Below, piece after piece: positions 3,353 to 26,503 of a stretch of DNA of 26,503 nucleotides. Under the pieces are notes generated by a model. The model ran no database searches. It saw only the letters and a program-made list of their open reading frames with translations, and was not told the DNA's origin. Each line of letters opens with the position of its first letter. Positions within the stretch are counted from its first letter, which is position 1. The translations under genes and the position numbers were made by a program. The stretch is from a virus: IMG/VR virus record IMGVR_UViG_3300044675_004586, positions 1 through 26,503 of that record; one strand, 5' to 3'.

Positions 3353-3676
3353 ATGACCCCACAATACATCGTAATCAACTCAAGCGGAAGCAAGTTTTAC
3401 TACAAGGACAGAGAGATGAAGATTTTCCATCGAGAAGATGGTCCAGCCTTATCTTATAGACATGGAGACAAGCTATGGTATTTAAATGGACAACCACATC
3501 GTGAAGATGGACCTGCCGTGGAATATTGCTCAGGTGAAAAAGCATGGTATTTAAATGGAAAGTTACTTTCCAAACGAGAATTCCTCAAGCGTACTGCTAA
3601 AGAAATTGTCTTGACTATGGATGAAATCGCTGCCAAGTTTGGTATCGAAGTTAGCAAGCTCAAGATCGTTAAGTAA
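3353..3676 (+). CDS. HREDGPA-repeat protein (107 aa)
   Basis: Two copies of a repeat of about 20 residues, HREDGPA followed by a W-Y/F-LNG block (residues about 24-45 and 46-68). The repeat resembles MORN-like modules that I associate with large-phage proteins. A tail of about 35 residues follows (EFLKRTAKEIVL, then MDEIAAKFGIEVSKLKI) and is almost identical in the next gene and in the gene at 24196. Part of a dispersed family of four in this window. The function is unknown; a protein-binding scaffold is a guess. Confidence 0.8.
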   Translation: MTPQYIVINSSGSKFYYKDREMKIFHREDGPALSYRHGDKLWYLNGQPHREDGPAVEYCSGEKAWYLNGKLLSKREFLKRTAKEIVLTMDEIAAKFGIEVSKLKIVK

Positions 3677-3689
3677 ATAAATAAAAAAT

Positions 3690-3965
3690 ATGACACCACA
3701 ATACATCGAAATTGACAAAGACAACAATAAGTCTTACTACAAGGATAAAGAGATGAATACTCTTCATCGTGAAGATGGACCTGCTCTTGAATACGCTGAT
3801 ATTAGTAAATCTTGGTTTCCTAATGGAAAAGCATGGTATCTGAACGGAGTATATCTTACCGAGCAAAACTTCCTTCTTAAAACTGCTAAGGAAATTGTCT
3901 TGACAATGGATGAAATTGCTGCTAAGTTTGGGATCGAAGTTAGCAAGCTGAAGATCGCTAAGTAA
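3690..3965 (+). CDS. HREDGPA-repeat protein, shorter paralogue (91 aa)
   Basis: A tandem paralogue of the preceding gene. The N-terminus (MTPQYIEIDKDNNKSYYKDKEM) aligns with its neighbour, but only one clear HREDGPA unit remains (residues about 27-33). The second unit is reduced to a WYLNG block. The C-terminal module with MDEIAAKFGIEVSKLKIAK is kept nearly unchanged, suggesting this tail is the functional constant and the repeats vary. The 13-base A-rich spacer has no Shine-Dalgarno. Confidence 0.8.
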   Translation: MTPQYIEIDKDNNKSYYKDKEMNTLHREDGPALEYADISKSWFPNGKAWYLNGVYLTEQNFLLKTAKEIVLTMDEIAAKFGIEVSKLKIAK

Positions 3966-4198: not shown

Positions 4199-5263
4199 AT
4201 GAACAAAATCGCAAGCGTAGAAAAAATCAAAGATGTAATCCATCATCCAAACGGTGATCGTCTGGATATCGTCACTGTGTTGGGATACCAATGCATCACC
4301 CAGCGTGGATTGTATAATCCCGGTGACATTGTGATTTACATTCAACCTGATAGTATTCTTCCTGAATTGGAATGGGCTGAAGATTACCGTAAGTATAGTC
4401 CAAAGCGTATCAAGGCCGTAAAGCTTCGTGGATCATGGAGTGAGGGGTGTCTGGTGAGTAAGAATTTGTTGGAGGGTGTTATCGACACCTCTATTTTCAA
4501 TTCGACCCAAATTGGTAATGATGTTTCCCATCTACTTGGAATCACTCATTATGAACCACCAGCACCGCAAGAGCTTAATGCAAAGGGATTCCTTCCTTAT
4601 GGCATTGGTAAAACTGATGAAGAGCGTTGGGAGAACATGGTGGAGCTTCTTCCTCTAGGCGAGCCAGTTGACATCACTTTGAAGCTTGATGGGCAAAGTT
4701 GGAGCGCGTATTACAAGCTAGACACTGATGAATTCGGTGTGCTTGGTCGTAATATGGAATACAAGCTGGATTCTCACAATAACTACACTGCTCAAATCGA
4801 GCGGTACGATATTGAGAACAAGCTGAAAAATTTCTGCAAGCGGCACAATGTATCACTGTGTATTCGTGGAGAATCTTATGGCAACAGCATTCAAAAGGGA
4901 AGTCATAATCCTCATAGCAGCAAACCCGCTGGTCTTGCTATCTTCAGCGTGTATCTCTTAGATGACCGCAGGTATGCTCGTAGAGGAGATAAGTTCTATT
5001 TCCCAAATGTCTGTAAAGAAATGGATCTTCCGCATGTTCCAATCATTCAACAGGATGTCATTCTGACTATGGATCTCATTAATTACTATTCTTCTGAATT
5101 GGTGCTTATCGACGGTGATTCGTTTGAGGGCGTCGTTGTTAATCATTCTGCGTTCACCAAAGAAATTGAAATTGACAAAGGAGAAAGTTCTGTTAAAGTT
5201 AAATTTAACGGACCCGCTGGATCATTCAAGATCATCAACAAGAACTACGATGCGAAGAAGTGA
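4199..5263 (+). CDS. RNA ligase, DRB0094-like (354 aa)
   Basis: An ATP-dependent RNA ligase of the nucleotidyltransferase superfamily. The N-terminal region (residues about 1-115) has the OB-like sequence with HPNGDRLDIV and an LRGSWSEG motif typical of DRB0094-type ligases. Catalytic motif I is LKLDGQS, with K162 as the expected adenylated lysine. RGESYG (about 223-228) fits motif III, FEGVVV (309-314) motif IV, and KVKF (about 333-336) motif V. All key motifs are present, so the enzyme is probably active. Expected role: sealing RNA ends, perhaps tRNA repair together with the kinase and second ligase near 12-13 kb. It follows promoter copy 4 at leaderless spacing. Confidence 0.9.
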   Translation: MNKIASVEKIKDVIHHPNGDRLDIVTVLGYQCITQRGLYNPGDIVIYIQPDSILPELEWAEDYRKYSPKRIKAVKLRGSWSEGCLVSKNLLEGVIDTSIFNSTQIGNDVSHLLGITHYEPPAPQELNAKGFLPYGIGKTDEERWENMVELLPLGEPVDITLKLDGQSWSAYYKLDTDEFGVLGRNMEYKLDSHNNYTAQIERYDIENKLKNFCKRHNVSLCIRGESYGNSIQKGSHNPHSSKPAGLAIFSVYLLDDRRYARRGDKFYFPNVCKEMDLPHVPIIQQDVILTMDLINYYSSELVLIDGDSFEGVVVNHSAFTKEIEIDKGESSVKVKFNGPAGSFKIINKNYDAKK

Positions 5264-5287
5264 CAGCTCGATCCGCTTAAATACAAT
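5260..5287 (+). promoter_or_regulatory. Candidate sigma70-like promoter
   Basis: GTGACA at 5260-5265, a 16-base spacer and TACAAT at 5282-5287, then eight bases before the ATG at 5296. The -35 box begins in the last codons of the RNA ligase gene. Spacer length and start-codon distance match the promoter-like sequence before rIIB. Confidence 0.5.
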
Positions 5288-5295
5288 AATAATTC

Positions 5296-6360
5296 ATGAA
5301 TGTAAAACAACAAATACAAGAAGCCCGTAATAACGGAATGTCTATCAGAGAGATTTCAAAACAATACGGAGTGCCGCGAACAACGGTGTTCGATTGGACC
5401 AAGGAAAAGACAGCACCTGCGTCGTCTGGTTTTGTGAATGAAAATCTTCAACGAGAAAAGCCCGAAAAGTTCTCGAAAACTTCAGATGAAGTATTGGAGT
5501 TTCTCAGCAATCTAGCGCCAATCAAACTGGATAAGAAGGTTGTTAGAAAGTCAGCATCATCATCTAATTCAGATTATGCTGTTGTTATTGGGGATATGCA
5601 CTTTCCAAAACATTGTCAGAAAACGATTGATATCTTTCTGCAAGTAGTTGAGGAACTATCACCATCCAAGATTATCCTAAATGGTGACACCATCGACATG
5701 TTGGCAGTTTCCAGATATCCAAAAGATATTCGAAACAACTATAATCTTCTTGATGAACGCAAAGCTTATCATGAATTCCTATCTGATCTGTTCAGCGTTA
5801 CAGATTATGATACCGAAATCTTAGAAGTAAACGCAAACCACAGTGGTAATGATGTCACTGGTCGGTGGTGGAGATATCTCTCTGAACGGATCAGCGAACT
5901 TGCGTCTCTTCCTGAAATCCGACAAGTGCTTTCATATGAAAGCATCTTCTTGGCTGAATATGCTGATTCTGTCAAGCTTGTTGACTATGCTAATATCACA
6001 GATGACTTTATCATTCTACACGGTGATATCGTTCGAAAGAATGGTGGATATTCTGCCCGTGGCATGTTGGACAAGTTTAACATCTCACTGATGCATAACC
6101 ACACTCACCGATTTGGTTCAACTGCTCAGAGAATTCCGGGAATCGCAAACCGAAAAGACAGGCAGATCTTTGCTTGGGAAAATGGCTGTGCTTGTGATCT
6201 CAATCCTGTATATGCATCTTCTCCAAACTGGCAGAACGGTTTCAGCATCATTGGATATGATAAGTCAGACGAACCACAATCATACTCCGTTGAGCAAGTA
6301 ATGGTGAATGATGGGGTTGCCACAGTAGGCACTCTTGGTCGGACTATAAGAGCATATTGA
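5296..6360 (+). CDS. HTH-metallophosphoesterase fusion (354 aa)
   Basis: Residues about 3-37 form a resolvase/Hin-like helix-turn-helix (NNGMSIREISKQYGVPRTTV, then FDW). After a polar linker, residues about 93-300 form a calcineurin-like phosphoesterase with VIGDMHFPK (D100, H102), LNGDTID (G130, D131), VNANHSGND, ILHGD and MHNHTHR. The HTH suggests it is directed to specific DNA, so a nuclease or DNA-repair role is plausible. That is inference. I have a vague memory of similar two-domain proteins in other phages. It starts a short run that includes the metalloprotease. Confidence 0.85.
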   Translation: MNVKQQIQEARNNGMSIREISKQYGVPRTTVFDWTKEKTAPASSGFVNENLQREKPEKFSKTSDEVLEFLSNLAPIKLDKKVVRKSASSSNSDYAVVIGDMHFPKHCQKTIDIFLQVVEELSPSKIILNGDTIDMLAVSRYPKDIRNNYNLLDERKAYHEFLSDLFSVTDYDTEILEVNANHSGNDVTGRWWRYLSERISELASLPEIRQVLSYESIFLAEYADSVKLVDYANITDDFIILHGDIVRKNGGYSARGMLDKFNISLMHNHTHRFGSTAQRIPGIANRKDRQIFAWENGCACDLNPVYASSPNWQNGFSIIGYDKSDEPQSYSVEQVMVNDGVATVGTLGRTIRAY

Positions 6361-6366
6361 TTAAAT

Positions 6367-7236
6367 ATGTTAATGGATAGTTTTGAAATGTTCTTTGAGC
6401 GTGTTAAGAATCCTCTGCGTAAAGCGGAGGTTTCTAAAACAACGAAAAATAAATCGAGTATTGTCAAAGGCTTAGTCACGAAGGCTAAGAACAAGCCATC
6501 TTTTCAGGAATACTCAAAGAACTTTCCAACCAGAGCATCCAAGAATATAGAGAACATTGAAAATAAGTACAAGTCTAAATTATTTAGACCATCCTTAACA
6601 CCGGACAAATATGTGAAAGTAAATATCAAAGGGTTTGATGTTTACTTTGACAAAAATCTTCCGGTGGTGAATGATGAATCATCATTCTATAAAGCGCAAC
6701 GAATGTTGAGGGGAACACTTCACAATGCACTAGTTCAATACATCAAAGGGGTTGTTCCCATCAGGAAACCTAAAATTGTAATAGCTGATCTAACTGGCGA
6801 AGACGCTAGTTATAGCGCAGGTAGCTCAACACCAGCGTATTATTTCAATCGTTTGATATTTATTGACGAATATAAAATATCTGACTCAGCATTATTCGCA
6901 CATGAGTATGCTCACTACTTAGCTGACAGTGTTGGAACACAAAGCCGTCCAGTGTTGATCAAAGCATACAACGATATGATAGAGGCTTATTACAATAAGC
7001 TATCAAAAAAGAAAATTGATTTACAAGATCGCCAAACAGATTCCAAGTGGAAGGCTAGAAATAAATTAAGAGAAAGAAAGAAAATAGCAAAAGCTATTGG
7101 GTTTCCCGGTGAATATGGATTGAATAACTTCGATGAGTTCTTTGCTGAAATCATCACAAATTGGAATGAAATGCCAAAGAACTCATCAACATATAAATTT
7201 AAACAAGCTGTTAAGAATGTAATTAATAGAGTATGA
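6367..7236 (+). CDS. Zinc metalloprotease, HExxH type (289 aa)
   Basis: The zinc site HEYAH sits at residues 179-183, and FDEFFAE (255-261) about 75 residues later supplies the likely third glutamate ligand, as in gluzincin-type peptidases. The 75 N-terminal residues are basic and low in complexity (SKTTKNKSS, SKNIENIENKYKSK) and may be a DNA- or protein-binding extension. There is no signal peptide, so it is predicted to act in the infected cell's cytoplasm or be carried in the virion. The substrate is unknown. A second ATG lies two codons downstream. Its TGA overlaps the next ATG. Confidence 0.8.
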   Translation: MLMDSFEMFFERVKNPLRKAEVSKTTKNKSSIVKGLVTKAKNKPSFQEYSKNFPTRASKNIENIENKYKSKLFRPSLTPDKYVKVNIKGFDVYFDKNLPVVNDESSFYKAQRMLRGTLHNALVQYIKGVVPIRKPKIVIADLTGEDASYSAGSSTPAYYFNRLIFIDEYKISDSALFAHEYAHYLADSVGTQSRPVLIKAYNDMIEAYYNKLSKKKIDLQDRQTDSKWKARNKLRERKKIAKAIGFPGEYGLNNFDEFFAEIITNWNEMPKNSSTYKFKQAVKNVINRV

Positions 7237-18909: not shown

Positions 18910-19713
18910 ATGAAAGGTTACAAAGCAACAAAGAACATGAAGTGTCTAGATCTTACTTATGAAGTGGGTAAGACTTACAGCATTGATAAACTAACGATTT
19001 GTTCTCATGGATTTCATTTCTGCCAAGAAATGAAGGATGTGGTTAATTATTATCAACCAACAGAATATTTTGTTCTTCTTGAAGTAGAAGCACTTGGAAA
19101 GATGCAAACACAGGATAATAAATCTGCTACTGATAACCTCAAAGTAATCCGAGTTGTTCCAAAAGAAGAATATACTTTTGATGTCTGTCAGTATGAATAC
19201 GATTCCTTTGGAAATAAGATCAAGGAAACCACTCCATGTGGAATTGTCTGGCAGTATGAATACGATTCCTTTGGAAACAAGATCAAGGTAACTACTCCAT
19301 CTGGAGATGTCGTTCAGTATGAATACGATTCCTTTGGAAATATGATCAAGCGAACTAATCCATCTGAAGGTGTCTATCAGTGGGAATATGATTCCTTTGG
19401 AAACAAGATCAAGCAAACTTATCCATGTGGAACTGTCCATCAGTATGAATACGATTCCTTTGGAAACAAGATCAAGGAGAGTTATCCATCTGGAATTGTC
19501 TATCTGTATGAATACGATTCCTTTGGAAACACGATCAAGCAAACTTATCCATGTGGAACTGTCTGTCTGTATGAATACGATTCCTTTGGAAACAAGATCA
19601 AGGAGAGTTATCCATCTGGAATTGTCTATCTGTATGAATACGATTCCTTTGGAAACAAGATCAAGCAAACTAATCCAAATGGTGATACTTGGAACATCAC
19701 GATTGAGGAATAA
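18910..19713 (+). CDS. YD-repeat protein, first paralogue (267 aa)
   Basis: Residues 1-93 form a small domain (MKGYKATKNMKCLDL, HGFHFCQEMKDVVNYY, LLEVEALGK) that resembles a phage/bacterial domain I associate with DUF7666; the name is from memory. Residues 94-261 are eight 21-residue repeats of the form QYEYDSFGNKIK then T-x-P-x-G-x-V-x. This is the YD-repeat pattern of Rhs and teneurin shells. A six-residue tail NITIEE follows. No signal peptide or membrane helix. A close paralogue lies at 21358, so a recent duplication is clear. Function unknown; repeat shells usually enclose or bind other molecules. Confidence 0.85.
   Translation: MKGYKATKNMKCLDLTYEVGKTYSIDKLTICSHGFHFCQEMKDVVNYYQPTEYFVLLEVEALGKMQTQDNKSATDNLKVIRVVPKEEYTFDVCQYEYDSFGNKIKETTPCGIVWQYEYDSFGNKIKVTTPSGDVVQYEYDSFGNMIKRTNPSEGVYQWEYDSFGNKIKQTYPCGTVHQYEYDSFGNKIKESYPSGIVYLYEYDSFGNTIKQTYPCGTVCLYEYDSFGNKIKESYPSGIVYLYEYDSFGNKIKQTNPNGDTWNITIEE
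19189..19692 (+). repeat. Eight tandem 63-bp YD repeats
   Basis: Eight units of exactly 63 bases. The core GAATACGATTCCTTTGGAAA is almost invariant; the last ~27 bases vary and encode the T-x-P-x-G-x-V positions. The phase is preserved, so unit gain or loss would keep the frame. Confidence 0.95.
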
Positions 19714-20941: not shown

Positions 20942-21355
20942 ATGGCTATCAATTTTTCCAAGCTTGAAGAAATCACTAAAGCTTTGAAAAGTTCAAAGCA
21001 GACTGGTAAGTGCTTTCACACCACATTTGCATTTCGTGGAAGCAAGTTGCTTTCAATTGGAATTAACAATTATAAGAAACAACACCCTGCTCGTAAGTTT
21101 GGAAACTATGTATCAACCAAAGGAGGAGGAGATTATGTCGCTGGTATCCATTCAGAGGTAAGCTCTCTGATCAAACTTGGAATGGAAGATTGTAGCGACA
21201 TTACCTTTGTGAACATCAGGGTTGACAATAACAATCGATTGGCTAATAGTCGTCCTTGTTCTAATTGTCAGAGAGTTTTAAATCAGATCGGTTACAAAAA
21301 CATTTGGTTCTACGATGGAACAACTTACATCAAACATAACAACAACATCAAATAA
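20942..21355 (+). CDS. Deaminase-fold zinc protein (137 aa)
   Basis: A cytidine/deoxycytidylate deaminase-like core: AGIHSEVSSL (H70, E72, the HxE zinc/proton-shuttle pair) and SRPCSNCQRVL (C106, C109, the PCxxC zinc ligands). The spacing fits the superfamily. The protein is short and lacks obvious allosteric or nucleotide-specific motifs, so it could act on a free nucleotide, a modified base or a nucleic acid. Neighbouring genes do not settle the substrate. Start ATG four bases after the previous stop. Confidence 0.8.
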   Translation: MAINFSKLEEITKALKSSKQTGKCFHTTFAFRGSKLLSIGINNYKKQHPARKFGNYVSTKGGGDYVAGIHSEVSSLIKLGMEDCSDITFVNIRVDNNNRLANSRPCSNCQRVLNQIGYKNIWFYDGTTYIKHNNNIK

Positions 21356-21357
21356 TA

Positions 21358-22221
21358 ATGAAAGGTTACAAAGCAACAAACAACATGAAGTGTCTAGATC
21401 TTACTTATGAAGTGGGTAAGACTTATACTAGTGATAAACTAAAGATTTGTTTACATGGCTTTCATTTCTGCCAAGAAATGAAGGATGTTATCAATTATTA
21501 TCAACCAACAGAAGACTTTGTTCTTCTTGAAGTGGAAGCTCTTGGAGAGGTTCAAACACAGGATAATAAATCGGTCACTGATAAACTTAAAGTAATCCGG
21601 GTTGTTCCAAGAGAGGAATATACTTTTGCTGTCGTTCAGTATGAATACGATTCCTTTGGAAACAAGATCAAGGCAACTGATCCATATGGAGATGTCTGGC
21701 AGTGGGAATACGATTCCTTTGGAAATAAGATCAAGCAAACTACTCCATCTGGAGATGTCTGGCAGTGGGAATACGATTCCTTTGGAAATATGATCAAGCA
21801 AACTACTCCATATGGAACTGTCTATCAGTATGAATATGATTCCTTTGGAAATATGATCAAGGAGATTTATCCATCTGGAACTGTCTATCAGTATGAATAC
21901 GATTCCTTTGGAAACAAGATCAAGGAGATTTATCCATCTGGAACTGTATATCTGTATGAATACGATTCCTTTGGAAATAGGATCAAGGAAACTACTCCAT
22001 CTGGAGATGTCTGGCAGTGGGAATACGATTCCTTTGGAAACAAGATCAAGGAAACTGATCCGTCTGGAACTGTCTATCAGTATGAATACGATTCCTTTGG
22101 AAATAAGATCAAGGCAACTACTCCATCTGGAAATGTCTATCAGTATGAATACGATTCCTTTGGAAATAAGATCAAGGAAACTGATCCATCTGGAGATGTC
22201 TGGAACATCACGATTGAGTAA
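21358..22221 (+). CDS. YD-repeat protein, second paralogue (287 aa)
   Basis: Almost identical at the N-terminus to the protein at 18910 (same MKGYKAT, KCLDLTYEVGKTY and GFHFCQEMKDV blocks), so one arose from the other by duplication. Residues 94-282 are nine 21-residue YD repeats, one more than in the paralogue, with the same tail NITIE. Variable positions differ between copies: here Q-W-E-Y and T-D-P or I-Y-P versions are common. It has no promoter element of its own and should be expressed from copy 15, unlike its paralogue, which has copy 13. Confidence 0.85.
   Translation: MKGYKATNNMKCLDLTYEVGKTYTSDKLKICLHGFHFCQEMKDVINYYQPTEDFVLLEVEALGEVQTQDNKSVTDKLKVIRVVPREEYTFAVVQYEYDSFGNKIKATDPYGDVWQWEYDSFGNKIKQTTPSGDVWQWEYDSFGNMIKQTTPYGTVYQYEYDSFGNMIKEIYPSGTVYQYEYDSFGNKIKEIYPSGTVYLYEYDSFGNRIKETTPSGDVWQWEYDSFGNKIKETDPSGTVYQYEYDSFGNKIKATTPSGNVYQYEYDSFGNKIKETDPSGDVWNITIE
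21637..22203 (+). repeat. Nine tandem 63-bp YD repeats
   Basis: Nine units of 63 bases in phase with the gene. The near-invariant core is the same as in the array at 19189-19692. Divergence is concentrated in the same ~27-base segment. Similarity within and between the two arrays suggests unequal exchange or gene conversion. Confidence 0.95.
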
Positions 22222-22240
22222 TAAAACGTTAGAGTAGAAT
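22222..22240 (+). promoter_or_regulatory. TAAAACGTTA-type promoter, copy 16
   Basis: TAAAACGTTA, AGAG, TAGAAT at 22235-22240, six bases (AACAAC), then the ATG at 22247. It abuts the stop of the YD-repeat gene. Confidence 0.85.
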
Positions 22241-22246
22241 AACAAC

Positions 22247-23197
22247 ATGAAGCAATACCTACACATTCGCTGGAGCGCCGTTCCAGATCAAACTTTTGTT
22301 TTGAACCTTGATCCAACCTTTGATCCTATCAAGGAAAAGAATAATCTGTTTTATCTCAAGCACAAGTCCTTTAACTTTCTAGGAGGAGAACCTCACTTTC
22401 AAATTACAACCCCTGACATTGCTGATCTACAGGGCAAGAAGCTTATCATCTCTCAGCGTGTCCTCAGTGTTAGTGATCTGTTCACTGTCATTCTGGCTGT
22501 GGATGCTGCTCGTCGGATGAATTTCAATTCCATTAAACTCATCCTACCTTATTTCCCTGCTGCTCGTCAGGATCGGGTTTGTAATGAAGGAGAACCTCTC
22601 ACTCTGAAAATCTTCACTGATGTGATTAATCAGTGCAATTTTGAAAAGGTGTTTATCTTCTCTCCTCACAGTGAAGTTGCTCCTGCTCTACTGAATAATG
22701 TTGAGGTTGTGGATGAACTGGAATATGCTGAGAAGGTGATTGAACATAACCTGTCTCAAGATGCTCTGAACACCAAGTTCAATATTGTTTGTCCTGATGC
22801 TGGTGCTGGCAAGCGGGTTGGTAAGATTGTCAGTCACCTTGCCAATAAGTTCAATCGTTGTTCATTCAATCTGATTCGTTGTGAGAAGATCCGTGATGTA
22901 AAGGATGGCAGCTTGAAGGATTTCTTTGTTCAAGCTGATGATCTTCAGGGACTTCCTACAATCATCTTTGACGATGTGCTTTCGCTAGGGGGTACGTTTA
23001 AAGGACTTGGAAATGTTTTAAAATCCAAAAAAGCTGGTAAATGTATGCTATACACATCTCACTGTGATTGCTTGGAAGGTATCCAAAACATGGTAGGATT
23101 TTTTGATCATTTCTACACTGTAGATACAAAGAAAGACTGGGAATCTTTGGATAATAAACTGGATGGTAAATTTACATGTTTCCGTTTTAAAATTTAA
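22247..23197 (+). CDS. PRPP-synthetase-like enzyme, candidate Adps of NARP1 (316 aa)
   Basis: A member of the ribose-phosphate pyrophosphokinase family. PYFPAARQDR (residues 101-110) is the ATP/flexible-loop motif, FSPHSEVAP (138-146) the active-site histidine region, CPDAGAGKR (182-190) the PRPP-type block, and IFDDVLSLGGT (240-250) the ribose-phosphate loop. That loop departs from the usual DDMIDTAGT. The length (316) is normal for the family. Paired with the NAMPT-like gene, it could be a PRPP supplier or, as in the phage NARP1 system, an ADP-ribose pyrophosphate synthetase. The last ~200 bases look more AT-rich, and a homologous second 3' end lies downstream (24053-24151). Confidence 0.88.
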   Translation: MKQYLHIRWSAVPDQTFVLNLDPTFDPIKEKNNLFYLKHKSFNFLGGEPHFQITTPDIADLQGKKLIISQRVLSVSDLFTVILAVDAARRMNFNSIKLILPYFPAARQDRVCNEGEPLTLKIFTDVINQCNFEKVFIFSPHSEVAPALLNNVEVVDELEYAEKVIEHNLSQDALNTKFNIVCPDAGAGKRVGKIVSHLANKFNRCSFNLIRCEKIRDVKDGSLKDFFVQADDLQGLPTIIFDDVLSLGGTFKGLGNVLKSKKAGKCMLYTSHCDCLEGIQNMVGFFDHFYTVDTKKDWESLDNKLDGKFTCFRFKI

Positions 23198-24052
23198 AAA
23201 AGTCCAACTCATACACTAAATATATATGTATGAGCCAATTGATAAAACCTCAAATAAAATGGACGCCGGAAAAAATCCAATTGTTGAAGGATGAATACCC
23301 ATCTGGAGATAAATCAAAATTAGCAGAGCGTTTAGGAATAAAAAGATCAACTCTTAAAGATGCCGCTAAAAGATTCAAAGTTAAATGTTTGCTACGCCCA
23401 AATGGACATCCTCCAAGAGGACATAAGGCTAAAGAATTATTAAATGATACATTAGAATCTTATTATTGGCACGGATTTATAATGGCTGATGGTCATATAA
23501 CCAATAAGGGGGGTATACTAATTACATTGGCGGAAAAAGATAAAGAACAATTAGAAAATTTAAAATTGTTTTTGAATGTAGATCAGCCAATTGTTCATAA
23601 AATTTATAGCACAACATATTCTGAAGCAACCAAGTCTGTACACTTGGCTTTATTTGATGTAGATACTTGTAATAAGCTTAGGGAAAAATATAATGTAACT
23701 AATAATAAAACAACCAACCCGCCAAATCTTGATTCTTTACAAAACCAAGAAAAATTTATGTCATTTTTTATTGGGTTTTTTGATGGTGATGGATGTTTCG
23801 GTCGCGATTATAAAAATAAAGTCAGTATGATGAAGATAGAATGTCACGGAAGTTGGTATTCAACATTAGAATCGATGGGAATAAAATTAAAAGAATTATT
23901 TGATATTGGGTCAACTTTAAAAATGACCAAGCGTGGACATGCCTGTTTTAGAATTTATAAAAAAAGTAATTTTATTAAGTTGAAAAACTTTATCCATGAT
24001 AACAATATACCAGCCATGAAACGAAAGTGGGATGGTGTTATATAAACACTCG
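22990..24052 (+). mobile_element. Inferred homing-endonuclease insertion with replacement 3' end
   Basis: The boundaries are estimates. The segment would contain the present AT-richer 3' end of the PRPP-synthetase-like gene plus the LAGLIDADG gene, inserted into the ancestral gene. The displaced original 3' end remains as the 32-codon remnant that follows. Support: the remnant's protein aligns with the last 35 residues of the intact gene, including the terminal KFT-x-F-x-FK and the stop. Confidence 0.45.
23230..24045 (+). CDS. LAGLIDADG-type homing endonuclease (271 aa)
   Basis: Two LAGLIDADG-like dodecapeptides, YYWHGFIMADGHI (residues about 77-89) and FFIGFFDGDGCFG (about 179-191), each with the key acidic residue. 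An N-terminal region (WTPEKIQLLKDEY, LAERLGIKRSTLKDA) looks like a helix-turn-helix. It is free-standing, not in an intron or intein. Base composition is more AT-rich and codon use poorer in G/C than in its neighbours, a sign of transfer. It lies between the PRPP-synthetase-like gene and the HREDGPA gene and likely spreads by cutting phages that lack the insertion. A TACACT lies eight bases before an out-of-frame ATG at 23226; the start at 23230 is in frame. Confidence 0.82.
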   Translation: MSQLIKPQIKWTPEKIQLLKDEYPSGDKSKLAERLGIKRSTLKDAAKRFKVKCLLRPNGHPPRGHKAKELLNDTLESYYWHGFIMADGHITNKGGILITLAEKDKEQLENLKLFLNVDQPIVHKIYSTTYSEATKSVHLALFDVDTCNKLREKYNVTNNKTTNPPNLDSLQNQEKFMSFFIGFFDGDGCFGRDYKNKVSMMKIECHGSWYSTLESMGIKLKELFDIGSTLKMTKRGHACFRIYKKSNFIKLKNFIHDNNIPAMKRKWDGVI

Positions 24053-24151
24053 ATGATCAACTACTTTGATTGGTATTACACCACAGACAGTCGTCATAAT
24101 GAAAAAGATTATGACTATGATAAATTCACTGTCTTTGAGTTCAAGCTGTAA
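24053..24151 (+). pseudogene. Orphaned 3' end of the PRPP-synthetase-like gene (32 codons)
   Basis: A 32-codon frame, MINYFDWYYTTDS through to DKFTVFEFKL and a TAA. It aligns with the C-terminus of the intact gene upstream (MVGFFDHFYTVDT through DGKFTCFRFKI): M, FD, Y-T, D and the whole KFT-x-F-x-FK end match, and it stops at the same place. Both the intact and the remnant sequences end with a TAA. It is not likely to be a functional gene on its own, since it follows the endonuclease stop by only seven bases. This is my alignment by eye. Confidence 0.6.
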
Positions 24152-24170
24152 GGAACTCTCTTAAAATTAA

Positions 24171-24189
24171 TAAAACGTTAGAATACAAT
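24171..24189 (+). promoter_or_regulatory. TAAAACGTTA-type promoter, copy 17
   Basis: TAAAACGTTA, AGAA, TACAAT at 24184-24189, six bases (AAACAC), then the ATG at 24196. It carries the GGAACTCTCTTAAAATTAA extension, which follows the remnant's stop. Confidence 0.85.
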
Positions 24190-24195
24190 AAACAC

Positions 24196-24522
24196 ATGAA
24201 ACCACAATACATCGAAATCAACGCAAACGGAAGCAAGTTTTACTACAAGGACAAAGCGATGACCATTCTAAATCATCGTGAAGACGGTCCAGCTCTTGAA
24301 TATTCCACTGGTCGTAAAGAATGGTATTTAAATGGAAAGCTTCATCGTGAAGATGGTCCTGCTGTTGAACGGTGTGATGGTACCGTAAATTGGTATCTCA
24401 ATGGAGAGATTCTAACTGAACAAGAATTCCTCAAGCGGACTGCTAAAGAAACTATCTTGACAATGGACGAAATTGCTGCTAAGTTTGGTATCGAAGTTAG
24501 TAAGTTGAAGATCGCTAAGTAA
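24196..24522 (+). CDS. HREDGPA-repeat protein (108 aa)
   Basis: A paralogue of the proteins at 3353 and 3690. Two NHREDGPALEY/LHREDGPAVER units (residues about 25-35 and 46-57) each precede a WYLNG block. The C-terminus LTEQEFLKRTAKETIL with MDEIAAKFGIEVSKLKIAK is nearly identical to those 20 kb away. It stands alone between copies 17 and 18 inside the candidate NAD+ locus, so its position is probably accidental, or it serves the region as a separate cassette. Confidence 0.8.
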   Translation: MKPQYIEINANGSKFYYKDKAMTILNHREDGPALEYSTGRKEWYLNGKLHREDGPAVERCDGTVNWYLNGEILTEQEFLKRTAKETILTMDEIAAKFGIEVSKLKIAK

Positions 24523-24541
24523 GGAACACTCTTAAAATTAA

Positions 24542-24560
24542 TAAAACGTTAGAATACAAT
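24542..24560 (+). promoter_or_regulatory. TAAAACGTTA-type promoter, copy 18
   Basis: TAAAACGTTA, AGAA, TACAAT at 24555-24560, six bases (AAACAT), then the ATG at 24567. It carries the GGAACACTCTTAAAATTAA extension just after the preceding stop. It is almost identical to copy 17. Confidence 0.85.
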
Positions 24561-24566
24561 AAACAT

Positions 24567-26168
24567 ATGCAAACACAAGCACTAACACAATCAGATGCCT
24601 ATAAACTGTCACACCATGGATTCATGAATCCGAAGACTGAATACATCTATGCCAATAAAACCGCTAGAGGAAGTAAGTATCTTCCAGTATTGAAACAATT
24701 TTATGATGAGAAAAGTGTTTTATTCGGTCTTCAACATTTCATCAAGGATTTCTTAATCAATGAATTTAATACTTCATTTTTCAATAAGCCGAAAGATGAA
24801 GTGATCAAACGGTTTAAGCGTCGATGCGATACATATCTTGGCACCGGGAGTGTTGATATGGATCGGTTTGAAGAACTTCACGATCTTGGATATCTCCCTA
24901 TTAAAATCAAGGCTCTTCCAGAAGGAGCAAGAGTCAATATCAAGGTTCCATTTCTTACTATCATTAACACTCATCCAAATTTTGCTTGGTTGACTAACTA
25001 TTTGGAAACCATCATTTCCTGTGAGATTTGGAAGCCTATCACCACTGCAACCATTGCATTTGAATTCCGTAAGATGTTCAATAAGTTTGCCATGGAAACT
25101 GTTGGCAACACGAACGGTGTTTGTTTCCAAGGGCATGGATTTGAGTTTAGAGGTATGAGTGGTCGGCACGATGCTGCCATTTCTGGCGCTGGATTCCTTC
25201 TAAGCTTTGCTGGAACTGATACCATTCCTGCAATTGATCTTCTGGAAGATTATTACAATGCTGACGCTGAAAAGGAATTGATTGCAGCATCGGTTCCAGC
25301 TTCGGAACACAGTGTTTCCAGCCTTGGAACATCATTGACTGGCGAGCTTGATTTCTTTCGGGATGCTATCACCAAACAATATCCAACGGGTATTGTAAGC
25401 TTGGTCAGTGACACCTATGATTATTTTAAGGTCATTACTGAATACGCTTCTATTCTAAAGGAAGATATCCTTAACAGAATTCCAAATGAATTGGGGCTTG
25501 CTAAAGTGGTATTCCGTCCAGATTCTGGAGATCCTGTTAAGATTGTTTGCGGCTATACTGAAGATGAAATCATCCGAGAAGATGGTAAGTTTTACGAAAA
25601 GGTAAAACTTCAATCTGAAGGTCCAAATAATAATCCTGTTCTAATTGAAACTAAGGGTGTAGAACTCACCGAAAACCAAGTCAAGGGATCTATCGAATGT
25701 CTATGGGATATCTTCGGTGGAACTGTATCTGACAAAGGATACAAGATGCTCAATGAACGATTGGGCTTGATATACGGAGATTCAATCACTCAACAACGAG
25801 CCTTTGACATTCTTAACAAGCTCAAGGATAAAGGTTTTGCATCTAACAACATTGTATTTGGTGTCGGTTCCTACACACTAAACCTACTCAGCAGGGATTG
25901 CCTTGGAATGGCTATTAAAGCAACTTGGGCGCAAGTTGACGGTGTTGGTTATGACATTTATAAAGATCCTGTCACAGACGACGGCTTGAAGAAATCCGCG
26001 AAGGGTCTGCTTAGAGTTGATCTAATCAACGGTGAATATGTATTGAAAGATCAATGCACCCGTGAAGAAGAAGAGGGTGGTGAACTTCAAGTGGTATTTT
26101 GTGATGGGCAACTCAAGAAGGACTGGACATTAGCTCAGATTAGAGAGAGAGTTAGCAAAAACTTCTAA
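24567..26168 (+). CDS. nadV: NAMPT-like transferase, NadV or candidate Namat of NARP1 (533 aa)
   Basis: A nicotinamide phosphoribosyltransferase homologue. It has the N-terminal SDAYKLSHHGF, GHGFEFRGMSGRHDAA (about 189-204), LSFAGTDTIPAI, SVPASEHSVSSLG with the catalytic-type H248, VSDTYDYF, VFRPDSGDPV with D319, and VGSYTLNLLSRDC, with SAKGLLRV near the end. At 533 residues it is slightly longer than human NAMPT (491). It could make NMN from nicotinamide and PRPP or, if paired as in phage NARP1, make NAD+ directly from ADP-ribose-pyrophosphate and nicotinamide. The two cannot be separated by motif. The gene ends in an overlap with the minus-strand endonuclease. Confidence 0.92.
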   Translation: MQTQALTQSDAYKLSHHGFMNPKTEYIYANKTARGSKYLPVLKQFYDEKSVLFGLQHFIKDFLINEFNTSFFNKPKDEVIKRFKRRCDTYLGTGSVDMDRFEELHDLGYLPIKIKALPEGARVNIKVPFLTIINTHPNFAWLTNYLETIISCEIWKPITTATIAFEFRKMFNKFAMETVGNTNGVCFQGHGFEFRGMSGRHDAAISGAGFLLSFAGTDTIPAIDLLEDYYNADAEKELIAASVPASEHSVSSLGTSLTGELDFFRDAITKQYPTGIVSLVSDTYDYFKVITEYASILKEDILNRIPNELGLAKVVFRPDSGDPVKIVCGYTEDEIIREDGKFYEKVKLQSEGPNNNPVLIETKGVELTENQVKGSIECLWDIFGGTVSDKGYKMLNERLGLIYGDSITQQRAFDILNKLKDKGFASNNIVFGVGSYTLNLLSRDCLGMAIKATWAQVDGVGYDIYKDPVTDDGLKKSAKGLLRVDLINGEYVLKDQCTREEEEGGELQVVFCDGQLKKDWTLAQIRERVSKNF

Positions 26169-26503
26169 CGATATACCTTGAAGTAGGTCCACGGAGAAAA
26201 GTTCCGTGGACCATCTTCTAAAAATTCTATATTGTTTATGAGTTGAAAGAATTTTTTGTTCCAGTTGAAATGCCTCATATAACGAAAGGTTGAGTTCGTC
26301 AATAATTTCGAATTTTCTAGGTTGTCCATTTTTCTTAGACAAAAATTTCAAAGATTTTATTCTATCTTTTGTAGAGTTTTTACTAATTCCAATTTTGTAA
26401 TATTTTCCATTATCAATTTTAATATAATATAAAATAGCTGGAACACTCTTAAAATTTTCATTATTCAGGAAAAACTCTTCACTATAACCTCCCAACAATT
26501 CAC
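26130..26503 (-). CDS. GIY-YIG-like homing endonuclease (partial at 5' end)
   Basis: An open frame running off the right edge, so the true start is outside; in-window residues are about 124. AILYYIKIDNGKYYKIGIS matches the GIY-YIG signature region (two Tyr-rich strands with KIG), TKDRIKSL gives the arginine, and the helix SLYEAFQLEQKIL supplies the glutamate. The block RRWSTELF resembles the T-E-x-F end of T5orf172-like members. The N-terminus LLGGYSEEFF suggests a further domain upstream. It is the only minus-strand gene, AT-rich, and its 3' end overlaps the NAMPT-like gene by 39 bases. Confidence 0.7.
   Translation of the reverse strand, partial: ELLGGYSEEFFLNNENFKSVPAILYYIKIDNGKYYKIGISKNSTKDRIKSLKFLSKKNGQPRKFEIIDELNLSLYEAFQLEQKILSTHKQYRIFRRWSTELFSVDLLQGISLEVFANSLSNLS
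26186..26212. terminator. Perfect hairpin after the NAMPT-like gene
   Basis: A 10-bp perfect stem (GGTCCACGGA/TCCGTGGACC) with a seven-base loop, 17 bases after the NAMPT-like stop. There is no U-tract in either direction. It also lies within the coding sequence of the minus-strand endonuclease. A factor-assisted terminator or mRNA-end stabiliser for the + strand is likely. Confidence 0.55.

Follow-up and report, generated by a model that had tools for sequence, protein, structure and literature searches.

The 3′ end of a PRPP-synthetase-like gene (prs) in the phage studied here was very probably replaced by a homing cassette, i.e., a LAGLIDADG endonuclease gene together with a recoded version of the last ~70 prs codons, which would have restored the gene, with a remnant of its native end left downstream. 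By sequence comparison, we show a replacement with a remnant, a common ancestry of the cassette in different phages, its movement between them, and its conserved location. The window, i.e., the whole stretch of DNA that we analyzed, is the 26.5-kb virus record IMGVR_UViG_3300044675_004586, and the rIIA/rIIB-like proteins and the RNA ligase that it encodes identify the genome as that of a phage. Between positions 22200 and 24600 it contains, in order, the prs-like gene, a LAGLIDADG ORF, a 32-codon frame, a small gene for a repeat protein and the first part of a NAMPT-like gene (Table 1).

Table 1. Coordinates of features at the prs locus of the window
Feature	Position	Strand	Evidence
prs (PRPP-synthetase-like), hybrid ORF in full	22247-23197	+	ORF list, stop at 23197
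prs native body, ribose-phosphate pyrophosphokinase-like	22247-22974	+	97.7% DNA identity to L004; Pribosyltran_N 2.4e-9; phrog_619 2e-60
prs replacement 3′ end, cassette-borne, in-frame fusion	22975-23197	+	~52% identity to L004; fixed bases of cassette tails
RNA hairpin, 8 bp, endonuclease start codon within its 3′ arm	23208-23234	+	folding z, compensatory pairs
LAGLIDADG homing endonuclease, two motifs, N-terminal helix-turn-helix-like part	23230-24045	+	Pfam, model, D87/D187
Stranded native prs 3′ end, 32 codons and stop	24052-24151	+	97.8% identity to L004 end, common downstream flank
Native downstream flank with small repeat-protein gene (24196-24522)	24152-24566	+	24052-24569 95% identical to L004 2866-3381
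NAMPT/Namat-like gene, prs partner in NAD+ synthesis	24567-26168	+	closest solved structure Namat 9W5X

Comparison with an uninterrupted relative

A contig from another metagenome, L004, is a close relative of the window that lacks the endonuclease and has an uninterrupted prs gene. Up to base 22974 the two prs genes differ at 17 of 728 bp (97.7% DNA identity), and from base 22975 on at 99 of 208 aligned bp (~52% identity; Fisher p = 2e-56 for the contrast), with the maximum-likelihood switch point at base 22975. This position is in the second Asp codon of IFDDVLSLGGTF, the PRPP-binding loop, near which the original prediction, made from the window alone, had tentatively placed the breakpoint. 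The prs body therefore reads through in frame into a divergent 3′ end, with the endonuclease ORF located behind it. Homology to L004 resumes at window position 24052 (L004 position 2866), and window 24052-24569 is 95% identical to L004 2866-3381. The remnant at the start of this region (reading frame 24053-24151, translated as MINYFDWYYTTDSRHNEKDYDYDKFTVFEFKL and followed by a stop codon) differs from the native end of L004 at 2 of 92 aligned bp (97.8% identity) and by one in-frame 3-bp insertion, and the same flank, GGAACTCT, lies directly 3′ of the native end in L004 and of the remnant in the window. A native 3′ end near-identical to that of an uninserted relative has thus been left downstream. 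This confirms the earlier proposal that the 32-codon frame is the orphaned end of prs, and that uninterrupted relatives should end in sequence like 24053-24151 with GGAACTCT directly after it; the frame matches the prs end of L004 and is not an independent small gene, and neither L004 nor a second, more distant uninterrupted relative, L019, has a C terminus like that of the window. L019 carries the same kind of native prs end as L004 (support for an L004+L019 tail clade, 96/94), so this native end is the older state.

The segment 22975-24051, made up of the new 3′ end and the LAGLIDADG gene, measures 1077 bp in the window opposite 114 bp in L004, and the event was therefore a replacement and not a plain insertion, with ~114 bp (38 codons) of native prs sequence lost from the window. 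The comparison with L004 thus supports the arrival of a divergent 3′ end together with an endonuclease, as had been suggested, but not its description as an insertion. Since the remnant matches L004 as closely as the remaining native prs sequence does, we consider the event recent relative to the split between the window phage and L004. The predicted higher AT content of the prs end is seen in total GC, which falls from 41.8% in the body to 34.2% in the tail; the accompanying shift in third-position GC, from 0.40 to 0.29, is not significant (p = 0.10), and composition by itself is thus only suggestive.

We also made several observations on the surroundings of this locus. The NAMPT-like gene (window 24567-26168, L004 4310-5923) is only ~50-55% identical between the two phages whereas its neighbors are 92-97% identical, which indicates that this gene has also been replaced in either the window or L004. 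A T5orf172/GIY-YIG-type endonuclease-like ORF at window 26130-26498 (minus strand) lies tail-to-tail with the NAMPT-like gene, with an overlap of ~39 bp, and is possibly a second homing gene, located where the next gene ends; a tail swap in the NAMPT-like gene beside it was considered and rejected, as identity is uneven along the gene with no clear switch. A recurrent, phage-promoter-like leader, AATAAAACGTTAGAATACAATAA followed by ATG, is found upstream of several genes (window 22219, 24168, 24539 and other starts), and the T4 late-promoter consensus TATAAATA has one match in the window, at chance level and located elsewhere than at this locus. Small genes with several copies of HREDGPA...W.LNG repeats occur at window 3353-3965 and 24196-24522, and in L004 too. 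Window 18910-19713 and 21358-22221 are a paralogous pair composed of tandem 63-bp units (EYDSFGNKIK...PSG repeats), with a different order of units in L004. The repeat-protein gene preceding prs (window 21340-22246) is absent from L003, a contig from another metagenome sample in which a deaminase-like gene directly adjoins the prs start, i.e., there is presence/absence variation inside one virus species.

Endonuclease genes at prs 3′ ends in other phages

All five members of the endonuclease family that we found are located at the 3′ end of a prs gene. For example, prs in L005 and in L010 (the same phage record as L016) is followed by a hairpin-containing gap of 30 bp and then by an endonuclease 56-58% identical to that of the window. 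The prs bodies of these two phages are 78.8% identical and their tails 91.1%, and high identity persists through the intergenic gap (96.7%), the endonuclease gene (96.1%) and the next 222 bp (92.3%). This rise in identity, which begins at the loop codons and continues through tail, gap and endonuclease as in co-conversion, indicates that the whole block moved as a unit. The best switch point falls at the TTTGATGAC codons, i.e., the IFDD codons at which the window also switches, within a two-unit interval that runs on into the tail, and codon changes between the two tails are mostly silent (14 silent, 4 not). Behind the endonuclease in L005 and L010 we found no remnant, and our search yielded no empty-site relative of either phage. 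These alignments show that other phages carry this cassette (tail, hairpin and endonuclease) in the same position, and that it has moved between them. Also present behind the endonuclease in both phages (L005 7770-7946; L010 after 5801) is ~220 bp of common sequence with a small ORF whose reading frame is disrupted at the end in L005, and the cassette in these phages may extend over this region.

Two further family members adjoin distant prs genes. In L012 the endonuclease gene follows prs, and in L013 it lies tail-to-tail with prs (5001-5855 on the plus strand and 5820-6704 on the minus strand), i.e., inverted but still at the prs 3′ end. The prs tails of L012 and L013 are 44% alike and their bodies 29%, which is suggestive only, and no empty-site relative was found for either.

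An HNH (NUMOD4-type) endonuclease family occupies the interval between prs and the NAMPT-like gene in the cultured phages FBKp34, FKP3, phiTE, DU_PP_I, Omen and H101, and D1-2 has an HNH gene in this interval as well. The prs gene of Klebsiella phage FKP3 is 96% identical to that of KP13-26, which lacks an endonuclease, up to locus base 2262 (interval 2258-2262) and 62% identical thereafter, with flank homology resuming just behind the endonuclease. Compared with both KP13-26 and phi1, DNA identity is 93-96% in the body and 63-65% in the tail (62% after the KP13-26 switch), and at the protein level FKP3 and phi1 are 97% identical in the body and 61% in the tail (p = 5e-14). The FKP3 switch is located ~four codons from that of the window, and there is no native remnant at the FKP3 locus. 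On this pattern we class FKP3 as the same kind of event, involving an endonuclease unrelated to the LAGLIDADG family. Some other carriers of HNH genes were not counted: the comparison of FBKp34 with KP13-16 (0.85 body, 0.65 tail) has no sharp switch at the loop, and Certrevirus phiTE and DU_PP_I differ only mildly in the tail (phiTE against Cronobacter phage PBES 02, where the endonuclease gene is absent: 0.86 body, 0.71 tail).

These data bear on whether the tail was swapped by ordinary homologous recombination between phages, with the endonuclease gene a later and unrelated insertion downstream. Phage genes are mosaic in nature, and phiTE, with an HNH gene at the prs end and a tail only mildly different from that of PBES 02, would fit such a history. 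We nevertheless judge it improbable, since tail, hairpin and endonuclease form one high-identity block in L005 and L010, since switch points agree to within a few codons in three comparisons that span two nuclease families, and since the LAGLIDADG genes are at prs ends in five of five cases.

Ancestry of the tail, the endonuclease and the hybrid protein

To compare tails and bodies we counted bases that are fixed in the three cassette carriers (window, L005 and L016) and that none of six uninterrupted, endonuclease-less relatives has, and found 16 such bases among 192 in the tail and 0 among 681 in the body. The value of 16 is the highest of all 84 possible three-against-six groupings in the tail, the next best being 6. 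Six of the 16 differences fall in the 11 codons starting at the DD pair, and for the Phe of GGTF every native gene uses TTC and every cassette TTT. The protein tree of the body joins the window to L004 (support 100/99), and this pairing is rejected by the tree of the tail (p-AU 0.029), in which placement is weak owing to its short length (about 72 columns); over the same columns, a clade of window, L005 and L016 is neither supported nor rejected (p 0.26). Different histories for the two parts of prs, as previously suggested, are supported by these trees and base counts. The best identity of the window tail to any relative is ~53%. The tail had been described as foreign; it is best seen as a part of the mobile cassette itself, because its ancestry is common with other cassette tails and not with any identified ordinary donor gene.

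This common signature also argues against a tandem duplication of the native tail within the window phage, after which the upstream copy would have diverged and an endonuclease gene would have been captured between the two. Two homologous tails do flank one endonuclease gene in tandem; yet the remnant is 97.8% identical to L004 against ~52% for the upstream tail, with a sharp switch at 22975, and the 16 derived bases of the upstream tail are found in the cassette tails of other phages, which already refutes a duplication unless L005 and L010 obtained their tails from the window phage. We regard this history as very improbable. The same holds, to our minds just as firmly, for an intron or intein at 22975-24051 whose splicing would join the body to the remnant into the full protein. 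Homing endonucleases are commonly housed in introns, the prs body plus the remnant is partly co-linear with L004, and phage introns in such genes are documented (e.g., in NAMPT of phage CB7; PMC7344957). Against this, the reading frame of the body stays open through a complete, homologous prs tail and closes at the stop codon of that tail, a join of body to remnant would miss 38 codons including the PRPP loop, and an Rfam scan of 22200-24600 matched no intron at E ≤ 1; the endonuclease ORF is separate, has its own start and lies beyond the prs stop (23197), and the element is therefore not an intein. An assembly chimera, conceivable for a 26.5-kb metagenome contig, is practically negligible and already refuted by independent assemblies, since L002 and L003, from two other metagenome samples, are identical to the window across 22247-24151, so that three samples carry the arrangement, and the same layout is found in other contigs.

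The endonuclease encoded by the cassette matches LAGLIDADG_3 (1.6e-9) and LAGLIDADG_1 (3.7e-5) in Pfam, and carries the two motifs GFIMADG (D87) and GFFDGDG (D187), with both Asp residues invariant in five relatives. Its AlphaFold model (pLDDT 85) has I-SceI (1r7m) as its best PDB match (E 1e-8, TM 0.55-0.65), consistent with a LAGLIDADG fold. The ORF is free-standing, outside any intron or intein, and adjoins its putative target, prs. Annotated phage records gave only one weak partial match to this LAGLIDADG protein, from which we conclude that this family is nearly absent from cultured phages, and two profile scans of bacterial and archaeal genomes gave no relative of the endonuclease.

Folding z scores of the hairpin that precedes the endonuclease are -3.5 in the window, -5.4 in L005, -6.3 in L010 and -4.1 in L012, where it is built from different bases; the L013 hairpin is not significant. 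Between L005 and L010 a U-A pair is changed to C-G, with a Ser-to-Gly change at residue 2 as a consequence, and a second compensatory pair sets the window apart from both. The statistics of these two compensatory pairs among three sequences are modest, with 66 of 500 shuffles as good. By covering the endonuclease AUG, this conserved hairpin probably delays translation or keeps it low. T4 endonucleases are held back by hairpins that mask the ribosome site, whereas the window hairpin hides the start codon itself.

The hybrid Prs protein retains the loop residues (DD....GGTF), and its model (pLDDT 82) is a complete PRPP-synthetase fold with E. coli PRPP synthetase (7XMU, E 1e-13) as best match. 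As loop and fold are kept, and as the changes between the L005 and L010 tails are mostly silent, the hybrid gene is probably functional. Of the solved structures, the best match to the NAMPT-like protein is Namat (9W5X, E 1e-132; also 9W5W), compared with 1e-62 for NAMPT entries such as 2H3B. In the NARP1 pathway, which reconstitutes NAD+ (Adps and Namat; PMC12774641), Namat serves as the ligase, and a Namat-like gene close to a prs-like gene, as found here, resembles that pathway. Given this neighbor, the prs-like protein may be an Adps instead of a PRPP synthetase, a lead for which no Adps structure is available for comparison according to PMC12774641.

Proposed homing mechanism and relation to known systems

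We propose that a free-standing LAGLIDADG gene whose target is prs carries along, as it moves, the final ~70 prs codons in recoded form. The endonuclease would cut uninterrupted prs genes in the region coding for the PRPP loop, and, when the cell is co-infected with a donor phage, repair of the break would use the cassette of this donor as a template. Homology for the 5′ crossover may come from the conserved loop codons, and the 3′ join in the window phage would be illegitimate; one-sided repair with microhomology and resection occurs in T4 (PMC2988022). The carried tail would then restore a working enzyme, and the carrier may be shielded from its own endonuclease because the loop DNA of the carried tail is recoded, although this recoding could be inherited drift instead of selected protection. 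An intron or intein protects its carrier by interrupting the cut site. A recoded, uncuttable gene end would be a third in-gene lifestyle beside these two, and on balance we favor the view that it is one, that it arose at least twice (LAGLIDADG and HNH) at nearly the same prs codons, and that it spreads chimeras of a possible NAD+-based anti-defense gene.

The closest parallel, as was recognized for atp6 in the original prediction, is with mobile ORFs carrying a foreign C terminus in fungal mitochondria, described for Allomyces atp6 and for Glomus atp6, atp9, cox2 and nad3 (PMC3630166). There too the 3′ end of a gene is replaced in frame with an endonuclease ORF behind it, the native end is abandoned downstream and near-identical to that of an uninserted relative, and the element in Glomus atp6 is also of the LAGLIDADG type (PMC3630166). 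The inserted end is recoded in both systems, largely synonymously in fungi (PMC3630166), whereas the window tail is diverged in protein as well (about 50%). Moreover, the host here is a phage and the target is an NAD+/nucleotide enzyme instead of a mitochondrial gene, other phages carry related cassettes at these codons, and an unrelated HNH family is involved too. The window element works like the fungal elements but is not classed among them.

Free-standing endonucleases of the T4 type (e.g., SegG, SegF and MobE; PMC2988022) are likewise intron-less and located beside a conserved metabolic gene, their transfer drags along neighboring gene sequence (co-conversion), and a translation-blocking hairpin precedes the ORF (PMC2988022). 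Described mob and seg insertions adjoin genes or split them into two polypeptides (PMC2988022); in the window, unlike these, a replacement end brought in with the cassette keeps the gene intact, and a native remnant persists. Homing endonuclease islands also place nuclease genes at the boundaries of exchanged DNA near important genes, but that report concerns T5orf172 and HNH genes and large islands, and in the passages searched neither prs nor a tail replacement is described (PMC10448857). In the open literature we found no phage description of such a tail replacement.

The window, its empty-site relative and the remnant together present, in phages, a selfish endonuclease that occupies an important gene without splicing, and thereby a concrete route by which phage enzymes become chimeric. 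Trees of phage prs genes mix two histories that meet at the PRPP loop, and this should serve as a warning. FKP3 and KP13-26 are a cultured pair that is tractable for direct study of homing with tail replacement. If the prs-Namat pair is NARP1, the endonuclease would be reshaping a counter-defense gene.
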